A DNA stretch of 64,000 bases from Tenuifilum thalassicum (GTDB lineage Bacteria; Bacteroidota; Bacteroidia; Bacteroidales; Tenuifilaceae). Location of the stretch: positions 1,410,581 to 1,474,580 of the forward strand of contig NZ_CP041345.1 in assembly GCF_013265555.1 (NCBI RefSeq), given 5' to 3'. Below the pieces are notes generated by a model. That model was not told the DNA's origin, searched no databases, and was given only the letters and a program-made list of their open reading frames with translations. The translations under genes were made by a program, and so were the position numbers. Of the stretch, positions 3,410-8,100 are shown one piece after another; positions within the stretch are counted from its first letter, which is position 1; each line of letters opens with the position of its first letter.

Positions 3410-3439
3410 TTGCCTATTTTGTATTTCTTTATAATTTTG
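3410..3439 (+). promoter_or_regulatory. probable promoter of the first tRNA-Leu unit
   Basis: TTG at 3410-3412 (-33 element) and TAATTTTG at 3432-3439 (exact TAnnTTTG -7 element) are separated by 19 bases, the expected Bacteroidota spacing. Transcription would start near 3445 and run through both hairpin copies before reaching the tRNA at 3683. Confidence 0.55.
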
Positions 3440-3476: not shown

Positions 3477-3682
3477 GCCCAGATGGCGGAACCGACGAAG
3501 GAGCTCCCGCCATCCGAAGGTAACCCAATAAAAAAGCTTAACTTTGAGTTCTTTTAGATTTTGAAATAATATTGTAGATGCCCAGATGGCGGAACCGACG
3601 AAGGAGCTCCCGCCATCCGAAGGTAACCCAATAAAAAAGCTTAACTTTGAGTTCTTTTAGATTTTGAAATAATATTGTTGAT
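3477..3682 (+). repeat. two tandem 103-bp units, each starting with a copy of the tRNA-Leu(CAG) 5' end
   Basis: Unit 1 is 3477-3579 and unit 2 is 3580-3682. By eye they differ at one base, in the AT-rich tail (attgtagat versus attgttgat). Each begins with the same 15 bases as the tRNA at 3683 (GCCCAGATGGCGGAA). Then, instead of continuing as tRNA, it runs into CCGACGAAGGAGCTC and CCGCCATC. GATGGCGG (3482-3489; 3585-3592) can pair with CCGCCATC (3507-3514; 3610-3617), making an 8-bp GC-rich hairpin over the first 38 bases of each unit. The remaining 65 bases are AT-rich spacer. These are not tRNA pseudogenes: nothing of the anticodon or T arms is present. Function is unknown. Confidence 0.9.
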
Positions 3683-3769
3683 GCCCAGATGGCGGAATTG
3701 GTAGACGCGCTAGTTTCAGGGACTAGTATCAGCAATGATGTGCAGGTTCGAGTCCTGTTCTGGGCACCA
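3683..3769 (+). tRNA. tRNA-Leu (anticodon CAG)
   Basis: Acceptor strand GCCCAGA pairs with TCTGGGC. The D-arm region GGCGGAATTGGTAGACGC, the anticodon stem-loop CTAGT-TTCAGGG-ACTAG with CAG at loop positions 3-5, a long class II variable arm and the T-loop GGTTCGAGTCC are all present. CCA is encoded (3767-3769) and a T-run follows. It is the third and only complete copy in a series of three 5' ends. Confidence 0.95.
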
Positions 3770-3813
3770 AAATTTTTTTTTTAGTTAGATGTGCAAATAA
3801 ATAATTTTGTTAT

Positions 3814-3821
3814 TATTTTTG
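3814..3821 (+). promoter_or_regulatory. putative -7 element (TATTTTTG) of the second tRNA-Leu unit
   Basis: An exact TAnnTTTG match ending 13 bases before the hairpin copy at 3835. If used, the transcript would begin about 5-10 bases ahead of that hairpin, making the hairpin the 5' leader of the pre-tRNA. A second exact match, TAATTTTG, lies at 3802-3809. Confidence 0.45.
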
Positions 3822-3834
3822 CACCGAAATTAAT

Positions 3835-3941
3835 GCCCAGGTGGTGGAACCGAGTGAAACGAGTTACTACCACCCAATGAAAGCAAAACAGTTTAAGTTG
3901 GAGTTGAAAGCAGCTCCTAGTTGAAATAAAAACTTTTATAT
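3835..3941 (+). repeat. single 107-bp unit starting with a copy of the tRNA-Leu(GAG) 5' end
   Basis: It begins GCCCAGGTGGTGGAA, identical to the first 15 bases of the tRNA at 3942. It then diverges into CCGAGTGAAACGAGTT and ends the structured part with ACTACCACC. GGTGGT (3840-3845) pairs with ACCACC (3869-3874), and AAC can pair with GTT inside. Where the tRNA-Leu(CAG) copies read ATGGCGG, this one reads GTGGTGG, and the 3' arm has changed to match, so pairing is kept while sequence differs. The rest is AT-rich spacer with only patchy similarity to the other units. Confidence 0.85.
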
Positions 3942-4025
3942 GCCCAGGTGGTGGAATTGGTAGACACACCAGCTTGAGGGGCTGGCGCCGTCAAAAGCGT
4001 GCAAGTTCGAGTCTTGTCCTGGGCA
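3942..4025 (+). tRNA. tRNA-Leu (anticodon GAG)
   Basis: Acceptor GCCCAGG pairs with CCTGGGC. The anticodon stem-loop is CCAGC-TTGAGGG-GCTGG with GAG at the anticodon, followed by a class II variable arm and the T-loop AGTTCGAGTCT. CCA is not encoded (the sequence after the discriminator A is CTTT), unlike the neighbouring tRNA-Leu(CAG). Confidence 0.95.
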
Positions 4026-4034
4026 CTTTACCTG

Positions 4035-4064
4035 AAAACCTTGTGATTGTCACAAGGTTTTTTT
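4035..4064 (+). terminator. rho-independent terminator after tRNA-Leu(GAG)
   Basis: A perfect 12-bp stem, AAAACCTTGTGA / TCACAAGGTTTT, with a TTG loop and running into Ts. Confidence 0.85.
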
Positions 4065-4093: not shown

Positions 4094-4828
4094 ATGAAAA
4101 CTATAGCTGTATTGTTGCTGCTAGCATGTGTTGGTATTAAATCATCTGCCCAGAGCTATGATGATTTCACTACTCAAAATGAAAGTAGATTGCGTATAAG
4201 CTTCATAGGTCATGGTACCCTAATGTTTGATTGGAATGGTAAAATAATACATATAGACCCTTGGTCGGCGCTTGCCAACTACGATACACTACCAAAGGCC
4301 GATTATGTTTTTGTTACACATCACCATGGCGATCACTTGGATTCTGTTGCTCTTTCAAAGGTTTTTACACTTGATACAAAAATATATTGGAGTAAAACCT
4401 GCTCCAAACAAAGTAGATTCAAAGCAAATGCTTTTATTGTGGCAAATAGCGATACAACTGAGACACCAGATTTTAGCTTTATTGCAGTTCCAGCCTATAA
4501 TATTGTGAATAAGCGAAATAATGGAATGCCTTTCCATCCAAGGGGGGAGGGGAATGGTTATATTTTTATTTTTGATAACCTTAGGGTTTATGTAGCTGGA
4601 GATACCGAGGATATACCAGAAATGAAAAGTTTTGGGTCAATAGATATTGCATTCCTACCCGTAAATCTACCTTACACAATGAGCCCAGAAATGTTCAAAT
4701 CGGCGGTTTTGATGCTTAAACCGAAAATTGTTTACCCTTACCATACTGGTAAAACAAACCTAAATGATTTGATTGACTTGCTCTCAGGTATTAAATCAAC
4801 AGAAATTAGGATAAGAAGCTTACAATAA
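4094..4828 (+). CDS. exported metallo-beta-lactamase-fold hydrolase (UlaG-like)
   Basis: The ATG at 4094 is chosen because it gives a clean signal peptide (MKTIAVLLLLACVGIKSSAQ); an upstream in-frame start would lie inside the tRNA and its terminator. The 244-residue product has IGHGTLMF and IDPW at the front, the metal-binding THHHGDHLD near residue 75, AGDTEDIPEM near 170 and a final His in YPYHTG. This is the order seen in the UlaG/UPF0173 branch of MBL-fold hydrolases. The substrate is unknown and the location should be periplasmic. A cytoplasmic relative with the same GDTExIPEM block lies at 48716-49384. Confidence 0.85.
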   Translation: MKTIAVLLLLACVGIKSSAQSYDDFTTQNESRLRISFIGHGTLMFDWNGKIIHIDPWSALANYDTLPKADYVFVTHHHGDHLDSVALSKVFTLDTKIYWSKTCSKQSRFKANAFIVANSDTTETPDFSFIAVPAYNIVNKRNNGMPFHPRGEGNGYIFIFDNLRVYVAGDTEDIPEMKSFGSIDIAFLPVNLPYTMSPEMFKSAVLMLKPKIVYPYHTGKTNLNDLIDLLSGIKSTEIRIRSLQ

Positions 4829-5150
4829 AAAAAGTTGTCCGGGTTATACTGTCTTTAAAGATCTGGGACTAATAGTGGATTCGATGCATGGCCGACAGTA
4901 AATGCGTTGATCCGGACAACCTGGCTGCTGGTGGCAACAGCAATATTATTGTATATGTTTGGGACATCTTTACTAGTAACAAAATCGTGCCATACCTTTT
5001 TGAGTAGCGTTTTTAATTCTTCTGAAAAGTGTAATGTCTTGTAAAATAGATGTATATGGCCTAATTTTACAAAGTTCTTGTTTTTTGGAGGAGGATAGTT
5101 GTGGAAAAAATTCCACAAATTGTGGGCGTGAAATCTACAAATAGAGTAAT
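4829..5150. other. intergenic region with an inverted repeat; no convincing gene
   Basis: This 322-base gap lies between two convergent genes. GTTGTCCGG (4834-4842) and CCGGACAAC (4912-4920) form a perfect 9-bp inverted repeat, and a second pair, ACTGTC / GACAGT (4848-4853, 4894-4899), is nested inside. A minus-strand frame of 87 codons (5118-4855) crosses it, begins with TTG and resembles nothing I recognise. It could be a gene remnant or a structured RNA; neither is established. Confidence 0.4.
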
Positions 5151-8100
5151 CTAATTTCCTTTACCCTCATTGTTGATTGCCTGGTAGAATAAATCATGTA
5201 TTTTTGTTCTATAGTCCTGGTGGGAAAGCTTGTTGTTCTCTGCAGTTGGATGTACCCTATTTGAAAGAAAAACATAAATAAAATTGTTTGCTGGATCGGC
5301 CCAAACAATCGTACCTGTAAAGCCGGTATGCCCAAAACTTAAAGGCGAAGCAAGCTGACCTGATGGTGATGGACCATTATAAACAGGTTTGTCAAAGCCA
5401 TAGGCACGTCTATTTTCATCGTTTATGCTTGGGTTTGCAAAGGTTTGAACTGTGCCTGGTTTAAAGAAACGTTCACCACCATATACACCATCGTTGAGGT
5501 AAAGTTGCATGAGCTTTGCTAAATCGTTAGCTGTTGAAAAAAGTCCTGCGTGGCCAGCAATACCACCAAGCATGGCTGCAGCAGGGTCGTGAACGTGCCC
5601 CCAGATAAGTTGTTTCCGGAAAACTGGGTCAAATTCAGTAGGAGCTATCCTGTCTGTATCAAAGTGTTTATATGGATTAAAAGTTGTATAGTTCATCCCA
5701 AGCCTTTTGTATAGCGGGGTTATGTACTCGTCAAGTTTCTTACTTGTGCTATTTTCAATTACCCTCTGAAGGTAAAGAAAACCAAGATCGCTATATCTGT
5801 ATTTGCCAGGTTCAATAATTGGCGATTGGTTTATCCATTTATTGATTGAATCACTTATGCTAATGCTTGAATATATCCTGTAGGCAACATTATTTGGGAA
5901 GGAAGAACTGGAGTCGGTGCTATAGAATTTTGGATCAGGATAGGCAAATCGGCTGGCATATTTCTTACCATTGAATTTGTATGGGTGATCAAAATCGAAC
6001 TCTTCGGTCCATAGAGGTTTAGAGGGGGCTAGGGAAGTGAGCGTGTTGATATAGAATGGTATCCATGCTGCTAAACCAGATTGATGTCTGAGTATATCGC
6101 CAATTTTTAATGATTCTTTATCGGGAAATTCTTTTAGTTTAATAAAATCGCCTAGCTCTGAGTTGAAATCTATTTTTCCTGAATCGTAGAGCATCATAAT
6201 TGACGGTAGGGTTGCAGAAACCTTGGTAACCGATGCCACATCGTAAAGCATGCGTATATCGTTACCATATTCCGAAACGTATGTTGGCCTTCCAAATGCT
6301 TTATTATAGAATACTACTCCATCTTTTGCTGCAAGAATTTGCATGCCAGGAGTTGCGCCTGTTGCAATGGCATCATTGGCAATTGAATCTACTTTTTCTA
6401 ACACTTTTTTACTGATTCCTAACTCTTCTGGAATCCCATAGCCCAGTCTGATCTTATTGGGTAACTCTATACCGGTATCATAGGAAAACGTGCCATTGGC
6501 ACTTACAGCCAACTTGCCTGAAACAGGTAAACCACCAAAGATTGCTTGCGCTGTAAGATTTTGTGCATCAAATGAGTTTTCGTATGAAATAATAATTCCA
6601 GTTAATGACGAAGGCATAGGAATTTTACTAAGTGCGTAGGGCGTTCCAAAAAGGGAGAGAACTGTTTTTTTTCGGAACGAAAGATCAAAGATAAAATTTG
6701 CTGCTTGTGTCGTAATTCCGAAATTTTTTGAAACTCTATTGCTAATGCTATGGTAACCAATTATTACAGTATTGTATGGCTCTATAAGGGAAAGTAGCTC
6801 ATCAAACTCATTTTGAGGTGAATATGGATCAATAGAAAAGGTTTTTATAGAAGTGTAAAGCTCTAATTGTTCACGAAAATCATCCCCTTTATTTGTTCCA
6901 ATTTCTATGTAAGCAATTTTTAATGTATCGAGTCGCTTAATCGGTAAAAAATTATCATTATTATGAGCTACGGTGATGGATTTTTTAATAATTCTTCTAC
7001 GAAGTACTAGTGAGTTTGGGGCGTTTAGATCAGAATAGAGGTTTTCTATTTTAATGGGCTTGTAAGCATTTAAACCTGCTTTATATTTAGCCATTAGGAC
7101 TTTTTTGCATTTAATGTTGATAATTTCTTCAGGAATTCTGCCAGTAGCTATATGGTTATGAATTTCATTAATTGTTCTTTCTATTTCACCAGGAAAAAGT
7201 AAAATGTCGTTACCAGCATAAAGTGCACGTATATTGGCATCAACGGCATCAAAATGAGCTGCAACTCCCTTCATGTTAAGGGCATCGGTAATAACAAGGC
7301 CGTTAAATCCGAGTTCGCTAATAAGTTTTTGACCGACAATCCTATGTGAAAGAGTTGAAGGTAGCAGGGTGTCGGGTTCAAGCGAAGGGATTTGAAGGTG
7401 CGCTACCATGACACTCGCAACGCCCTTTGAAAAGATATTTTTAAAAGGATAAAGCTCTATAGAGTCTATTCGGTTGGCGGTGTGTTTTATAACTGGAAGT
7501 GTGTAATGAGAATCGGCGTTAGTATCGCCATGTCCTGGAAAATGTTTAATGCAAGCTAATATCCCATTATCTTGCAGACCTTTAACATAGGCTAAACCAT
7601 GTTTAAAAACCAAATCACGGTTTTCACCAAACGAACGTGTCCCAATAACTGGATTATCTGGATTGTTGTTAATATCAATAACAGGTGCAAAGTTAATATG
7701 TACACCAATTCGTTTAAGCTGACGAGCAATGTCTGCTGCCATTTGATAGGTGAGCATTGTGTCGCGTGAAGCGCCAAGTGCTATTTGACGGGGATAAGAA
7801 ATAGTGCTATCGAGGCGCATTCCCAAACCCCATTCAGCATCGATGCCTATTAGCAGAGGAACCTTTGAAAGCGATTGGTAGTAGTTGGTTAGCTGAGCCT
7901 GTCTTACTGGTCCTCCTTGAAAGAAAATTAAACCTCCAATCTTATACTTTTCAATTAGCGTTGCTATTTCTTCAGTATGCAAATCATCTTTGTTTGAATA
8001 GGCTGCAACCATGAAGAGTTGAGCAATTCGCTCTTTTAGAGTTAAGCTATTAAACACGGAATCGACCCAGTAGGCTTGTTGGATTGAATCGTTTTTACAA

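Follow-up and report, generated by a model that had tools for sequence, protein, structure and literature searches.

Hairpin units that copy the 5' end of the following tRNA-Leu gene in Tenuifilum thalassicum and related Bacteroidales

Comparison with described repeats and leader RNAs

The tRNA-linked repeats (TLRs) of Escherichia coli are repeats of tRNA and rRNA operons, each carrying 18-19 bp that duplicate the 3' end of the tRNA or rRNA gene next to it, an example being the 178-bp repeats of tyrT (Egan and Landy, 1978, as cited in PMC8144298). According to the same source, a function claimed for the tyrT repeats was later retracted, and an E. coli rRNA operon encodes RrB, an sRNA of TLR type, whose copied end was proposed to guide the same processing enzyme (PMC8144298). 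REP and RAYT are short palindromic repeats that form hairpins (PMC3733652; PMC6006769). They are characterized by dispersed extragenic copies, a GTAG or CGTC tag and an associated transposase. T-box and other tRNA-related leader switches are leader RNAs in which alternative pairings involve tRNA sequence.

The window analyzed here is a stretch of 64,000 nucleotides from the T. thalassicum genome, which consists of one contig of 3.2 Mb. It contains units located before tRNA-Leu genes (Leu units) that, like the TLRs, repeat one end of the neighboring gene exactly over a short length (18-19 bp in TLRs and 15 here). Whereas TLRs lie downstream and copy 3' ends, the Leu units lie upstream, copy the 5' end and carry in addition a complementary arm that makes the copy a hairpin. 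Two features defining TLRs are a copy of 18-19 bp from the 3' end and a location directly downstream of the copied gene. The Leu units have neither (15 nt from the 5' end; 38 of 41 matches before an intact tRNA-Leu) and were therefore not classed as TLRs. They may nevertheless work like them. The statement in a preliminary description of this DNA that no described system matches was too strong, since the E. coli TLRs (PMC8144298) are the nearest known kind.

The likeness to REP and RAYT lies in the short hairpin-forming repeats, and in the dispersal of the TCCCGA palindromes present in copies of other tRNAs. Unlike REP and RAYT, the Leu hairpins were found before tRNA-Leu only and have arms derived from the tRNA, and instead of being dispersed all 41 matches were located at tRNA-Leu or at contig ends. 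T-box-type switches precede an amino-acid gene, whereas the Leu units precede the tRNA itself. In Rfam searches, at the gathering score and also at E up to 10, tRNA was the only family that reached threshold. We found no paper on such 5' tRNA copies with hairpins in a literature search that covered subscription journals thinly.

Hairpin units at tRNA-Leu genes of T. thalassicum and its relatives

Three hairpin units, at 3477-3514, 3580-3617 and 3835-3874 of the plus strand, begin with exactly bases 1-15 of the tRNA-Leu gene behind them, as was stated in the preliminary description. Units 1 and 2 precede tRNA-Leu(CAG) (3683-3769) and unit 3 precedes tRNA-Leu(GAG) (3942-4026), both genes being called by ARAGORN and Rfam on the same strand. 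Unit 1 is composed of the copy (3477-3491), a core loop (3492-3505) and a 3' arm (3506-3514), and unit 2 has the same layout. Together with their spacers the two form tandem repeats of 103 nt (3477-3579 and 3580-3682) that are 99% identical. Unit 3 has the copy at 3835-3849, followed by the core and a 3' arm at 3867-3874. The observation of self-copying hairpins before tRNA-Leu is thus confirmed. The hairpins were more stable than shuffled sequences, with z values of -2.57 (3477-3530), -2.57 (3580-3633) and -3.43 (3834-3882) and with 3, 3 and 0 of 200 shuffles as stable, respectively. The CAG and GAG families were found to differ at tRNA bases 7 and 11, with 3' arms changed to match, which bears out the earlier claim of two families whose arms differ accordingly.

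The spacer of the second tandem repeat contains the boxA-like stretch AGTTCTTTT, and a GTTCTTT stretch is conserved in the CAG spacers of the genus (3580-3682 of the window and its counterparts in relatives); both resemble what we take to be the boxA antitermination motif. A second hairpin, GGAGTTG/CAGCTCC, is predicted in the spacer of unit 3 (3875-3941, plus strand), and a terminator-like hairpin follows tRNA-Leu(GAG) at 4034-4062 on the plus strand.

The 5' copies before tRNAs are not due to chance. For each T. thalassicum tRNA gene five 5' ends of other tRNAs were drawn, and none of the 204 comparisons gave a match, defined as at most 2 mismatches in 13, to the foreign 5' end within 300 nt upstream. 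Among 25 hand-picked unit/tRNA pairs, covering ten different tRNA 5' sequences, 22 were identical over 15 of 15 bases. Shuffling the partners 20,000 times gave a mean of 3.3 exact pairs and a maximum of 10, and after collapsing to lineage/tRNA types 14 of 16 were exact. Not among the 25 pairs are the units of G006, second copies in tandem series, units that stand at a contig end with no tRNA behind them (G223 and G015 C154), the first L115 unit (all 15 bases match), the first G002 unit (one mismatch) and the G024/L113 unit (four mismatches to the GAG gene that follows it, two to a CAG gene); counting the last two as misses gives 22 of 27. The inexact pairs were the first GAG unit of G001 (13/15), the CAG unit of G020 (10/15) and the G056 unit (14/15). 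Given these three pairs and the two omitted units with mismatches, the units also decay. Base 13 is A in the G015 and G020 genes for tRNA-Leu(GAG), and both the copy and the 3' arm follow suit.

Motifs of the form TAnnTTTG, which we take to be the -7 promoter motif of Bacteroidota, were found upstream of both series. The motif TAATTTTG (3432-3439, plus strand) starts 45 nt before unit 1 and TATTTTTG (3814-3821, plus strand) starts 21 nt before unit 3, and they are putative promoters of the CAG and GAG series, respectively. The motif also occurs 41 nt before unit 2 and, across loci, starts 17-62 nt upstream of most first units, counts to which the motif scan attaches no chance level. The promoter that had been proposed ahead of each series therefore has a candidate motif in either case, and stays putative. 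No TAnnTTTG was present within 75 nt upstream in G369, in G058, at the TAA locus of G157 or at either G811 locus. A sigma-70 scan gave five promoter-like sites against 2.2 expected, none of them usefully placed before a unit.

A pattern of the unit matched 9 of 118 genomes including T. thalassicum, and the control had no matches. Two covariance models were used, the first built from 20 and the second from 26 units. With the first, 13 of 393 genomes of the order had matches, of which at least 10, T. thalassicum included, were real by context (that of G223 lies at a contig end), and three were weak matches without a tRNA. With the second, 6 of 395 genomes of the phylum had matches, those of T. 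thalassicum alone being real; as both searches scored 15 candidates per genome, their counts are lower bounds. The second model also found matches in 15 of 27 genomes of the T. thalassicum family (f1), of which 13 were real (T. thalassicum included), and units in 3 of 11 genomes of family f99 and 2 of 20 of family f19. Altogether real matches came from f1 and from five other families of the order (f8, f19, f31, f33 and f99). When named genomes were scanned with a strict pattern of the core, 15 stretches matched. Thirteen of these, on 12 contigs, were titled Bacteroidales, Bacteroidetes, Perlabentimonas or Rikenella; the other two, from Natronococcus, had no tRNA that we could find nearby and were read as chance. 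Weak model matches that were not units before tRNA-Leu were dropped (L089-L091, L121-L125, L139, L140 and L147).

The units precede tRNA-Leu genes of the isoacceptors CAG, GAG, TAA and CAA. Between none and seven were found before a gene; the CAG gene of one genome (G003) had no unit at all, while in G056 a 69-nt unit is repeated about seven times. Thus the units are patchy and dispensable among the genomes surveyed. Pooled from the order, phylum, family, f99 and f19 searches, 41 distinct model matches had E below 1e-4, many of them being units from which the models were built. All 41 were in the sense orientation before tRNA-Leu, 38 of them before an intact gene, one before a gene cut by an assembly gap and two at contig ends. 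Several TAA units are located between tRNA-Gly and tRNA-Leu, and a terminator-like stem was seen by eye after the tRNA-Gly in G058 and G327.

Among units of the genus the sense copy is invariant (100% identity). The mean identity of core plus 3' arm was 88% for five CAG units and 90% for six GAG units, compared to 54% and 61%, respectively, for the remaining unit sequence, i.e., the spacer. The hairpin is therefore conserved above the spacer. Across the alignment 94.2% of the helix cells were paired, and the covariation score was 0.231 compared to 0.157 in shuffles, none of the 500 reaching the observed score, and to 0.041-0.103 in slid registers, with relatedness left in. Covariation was judged by five measures of which two were weak: four pairs changed on both sides, which is hardly above shuffles (20 of 500 as high), and there were ten further pair types, which is not above shuffles (234 of 500 as high). 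A conserved structure with covariation, as expected of a cis-acting leader RNA, was thus found, two of the five measures being weak and relatedness not being removed. The covariance-model search in related genomes that had been suggested at the outset accordingly showed units that recur (13 of 27 family genomes) and covary, rather than being absent from all relatives.

By eye the core has GA on both strands and the 3' arm has a one-base bulge, while the pair closing the loop is mostly G-C, with C-G in the CAG units of T. thalassicum, in G056 and in the CAA units of G811, and A-U in G015 C154. RNAalifold paired the inner core differently, so this reading of the core is provisional. Two further readings, an integron attC site and a kink-turn within the core, were dropped on inspection by eye. 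In 4 of 15 loci the 3' half of the unit matches the antisense of tRNA bases 24 to about 7. The number of shuffles, out of 2000, with as good a match reaching base 24 was 0 for G058, 3 for G803, 13 for G002 and 49 for G369, and in G058 the entire 3' half is, apart from a few changes, antisense to bases 24 to 4. In the remaining 11 loci the antisense match stops short of base 24 and comprises little more than the arm. The unit probably arose when roughly the first 24 bases of the tRNA were duplicated in inverted orientation, the self-pairing having been kept since.

Predicted folding and a possible action on pre-tRNA-Leu

The precursors of 20 loci were folded at equilibrium, excluding G006, G015, G021, G024 and G025. 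The native acceptor stem formed with a mean probability of 0.95 in the tRNA alone and 0.05 together with the unit (highest 0.29), and all 20 precursors were predicted to lose most of this stem. With the hairpin scrambled the mean was 0.42, with the copy scrambled 0.14, and with the core and 3' arm scrambled 0.03. In the folding model an intact hairpin therefore hardly protects the tRNA at all compared to an exposed copy (0.05 versus 0.03). Strand pairing was inspected in 11 of the 20 loci. The copy strand was predicted to pair with the 3' acceptor strand in all of them, with probabilities of 0.63-0.98. The 3' arm was predicted to pair with the 5' half of the tRNA in about six (the GAG locus of T. 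thalassicum, the CAA locus of G157, and G058, G369, G803 and G020), mainly with the copy in the CAG locus of T. thalassicum, in G004 and in G013, and clearly with neither in G327 and G056. Energy models of this kind leave large enclosed loops uncharged and ignore tertiary contacts and the order of folding. The competition between copy and acceptor strand anticipated in the preliminary description thus reappears in the 11 loci inspected, in a model that favors long-range pairs.

We propose, with a probability of about 0.42, that the Leu units are 5'-side tRNA-linked repeats which are transcribed and act in cis on pre-tRNA-Leu, the hairpin presumably being kept for this action. Each unit would be a leader segment made from the beginning of the tRNA-Leu gene itself. 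By sequence it consists of the sense copy (bases 1-15), the core, a complementary 3' arm and a spacer, the arm in some lineages being recognizable as the remains of an antisense copy that ran from base 24 to about 7, and one to seven such units stand before the tRNA. Since the tRNA can pair with the unit at two places, at its 3' acceptor strand with the copy and in its 5' half with the 3' arm, competing precursor folds would result, and the unit would slow down or redirect the folding of tRNA-Leu and its cleavage by RNase P. The proposal is favored by the exact copies, the covariation, the conservation of the hairpin above the spacer, the confinement of the 41 matches to the sense strand before tRNA-Leu and the predicted competing pairings. 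Counting against it are the patchy occurrence of the units, the two weak covariation measures, the antisense match falling short of base 24 in 11 of 15 loci, the poor protection by an intact hairpin in the folding model, and the hairpin-bearing partial copies downstream of other tRNAs. As the exchange of partners was predicted in about half of the loci, the odds of this leader reading were set slightly lower. If the units do act on pre-tRNA-Leu, a tRNA gene would control its own maturation by imitating itself, and the number of copies would tune the effect.

A more specific form of this proposal, in which the pre-tRNA is a two-state switch built from a sense-plus-antisense copy of itself, is unlikely. 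In one state hairpin and cloverleaf would both be formed. In the other the copy would hold the 3' acceptor strand while the antisense arm would hold the 5' half of the tRNA, and the balance would set how much tRNA-Leu matures. Such a switch would constitute a new class of leader RNA. The interpretation given in the preliminary description is, taken as a whole, partly supported.

Partial copies at other tRNA genes and alternative explanations

We surveyed the tRNA genes of five genomes chosen for carrying units or palindromes. Upstream 5' copies were found before 3 of 42, 2 of 36, 4 of 32, 7 of 41 and 2 of 29 tRNAs, compared to 0 of 204, 1 of 170, 0 of 155, 1 of 204 and 1 of 140 in the matching controls. 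Two of the seven counted in G023 are a single copy, and the copy before a Gly gene of G013 is one of tRNA-Ala. By eye, every upstream 5' copy in the five genomes holds a hairpin. Those of tRNAs other than Leu are mostly TCCCGA..TCGGGA or CCTGCC..GGCAGG palindromes located in the D-loop or replacing the anticodon arm. A looser scan gave downstream matches at 5, 0, 5, 5 and 1 genes, some of them short or to a neighboring tRNA.

In T. thalassicum downstream 3' copies were found for tRNA-Arg and, with a TCCCGA/TCGGGA stem, for tRNA-Val, Met, Ala and Pro. The anticodon is retained in the altered arm of the Ala and Pro copies and of two of the three Val copies, and is lost in the Met copies. The palindrome TCCCGA-N4-8-TCGGGA, which has variable loops, is dispersed, with 20 occurrences in T. 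thalassicum, 77 in G013 and 99 in G023 against 4, 2 and 1 for reversed-pattern controls. Across the 27 f1 genomes it was far above the control in several and at or below it in others (1 versus 6 in G002).

A rival explanation that we consider nearly as likely as a leader element on pre-tRNA-Leu is that the units are by-products of events at the DNA level. Template switching or tandem duplication would leave partial copies beside an intact tRNA, hairpins would be gained, and the Leu units would be the most regular of these copies and functionless. It is favored by the copies at other tRNAs, both the upstream 5' copies above controls in five genomes and the downstream 3' copies of T. thalassicum, by the dispersed palindromes, and by a number of Leu units that varies from 0 to 7. 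The combination of sense, antisense and direct copy is also what a double template switch would be expected to leave. The presence of hairpin-bearing copies on either side of other tRNAs makes a reading by leader RNA alone weaker. In T. thalassicum the downstream Val copies were seen by eye to come after a terminator-like stem, and selection acting on a leader RNA can thus not account for every hairpin found in a copy. Mainly for this reason we place the functional reading under even odds. The shared core, the covariation and the conservation of the hairpin above the spacer are, on the other hand, not explained by a by-product alone, and the 41 Leu matches are located before tRNA-Leu only. Nor does every partial copy have a palindrome: one of tRNA-Met located downstream in G013 (L184) shows none, and neither does, in the part seen, the match to tRNA-Arg found upstream, at -300, in G023 (L293). 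Should the units be functionless, they would plainly record a process at the DNA level by which partial, hairpin-bearing tRNA copies are produced, and would be a caution for tRNA annotation in Bacteroidales.

It is improbable that the hairpin is cut from the precursor, as RrB is, and persists as a stable small RNA, although the stable fold of the hairpins would suit this, as would the analogy with RrB, whose copied end was proposed as a guide for the same processing enzyme (PMC8144298). Least probable is a REP-like hairpin-forming mobile element whose homing site would be the tRNA-Leu D-loop, behind base 15, a point of insertion shared by Leu copies with unrelated palindromes (in G023 and in Perlabentimonas L113) and in line with the patchy distribution, but at odds with arms that track each tRNA and with matches of E below 1e-4 nowhere except before tRNA-Leu.

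Several loci with partial copies have features of their own. At L034 of T. thalassicum (G000:C1:1018356-1021430), on the minus strand at about 1421-1910, a 5' copy precedes tRNA-Val(TAC) and two 3' copies, 179 nt apart, follow it. In all of the Val copies the anticodon stem is changed to TCCCGAC/GTCGGGA, with a loop of TTAC in two and TAAC in one. The downstream partial 3' copies of tRNA-Met, Ala, Pro and Arg in T. thalassicum are found at L046, L052, L053 and L065, and two of the Met copies are 178 nt apart. Six 5' copies in G023 (L248, L256, L258, L262, L272 and L297), one of them counted for two Gly genes, contain CCTGCCTGCCGGTAGGCAGG or a palindrome related to it, in most cases within the D-loop. 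In Perlabentimonas gracilis (L113) a unit at 4789 and tRNA-Leu(GAG) at 5007 are separated by a broken tRNA-Leu copy that has a CCTGTC..GACAGG hairpin after base 15. At L115 (5256-6380) a HigB/HigA-like toxin-antitoxin pair, named by eye (5410-5748 and 5755-6090), is located between two Leu units.
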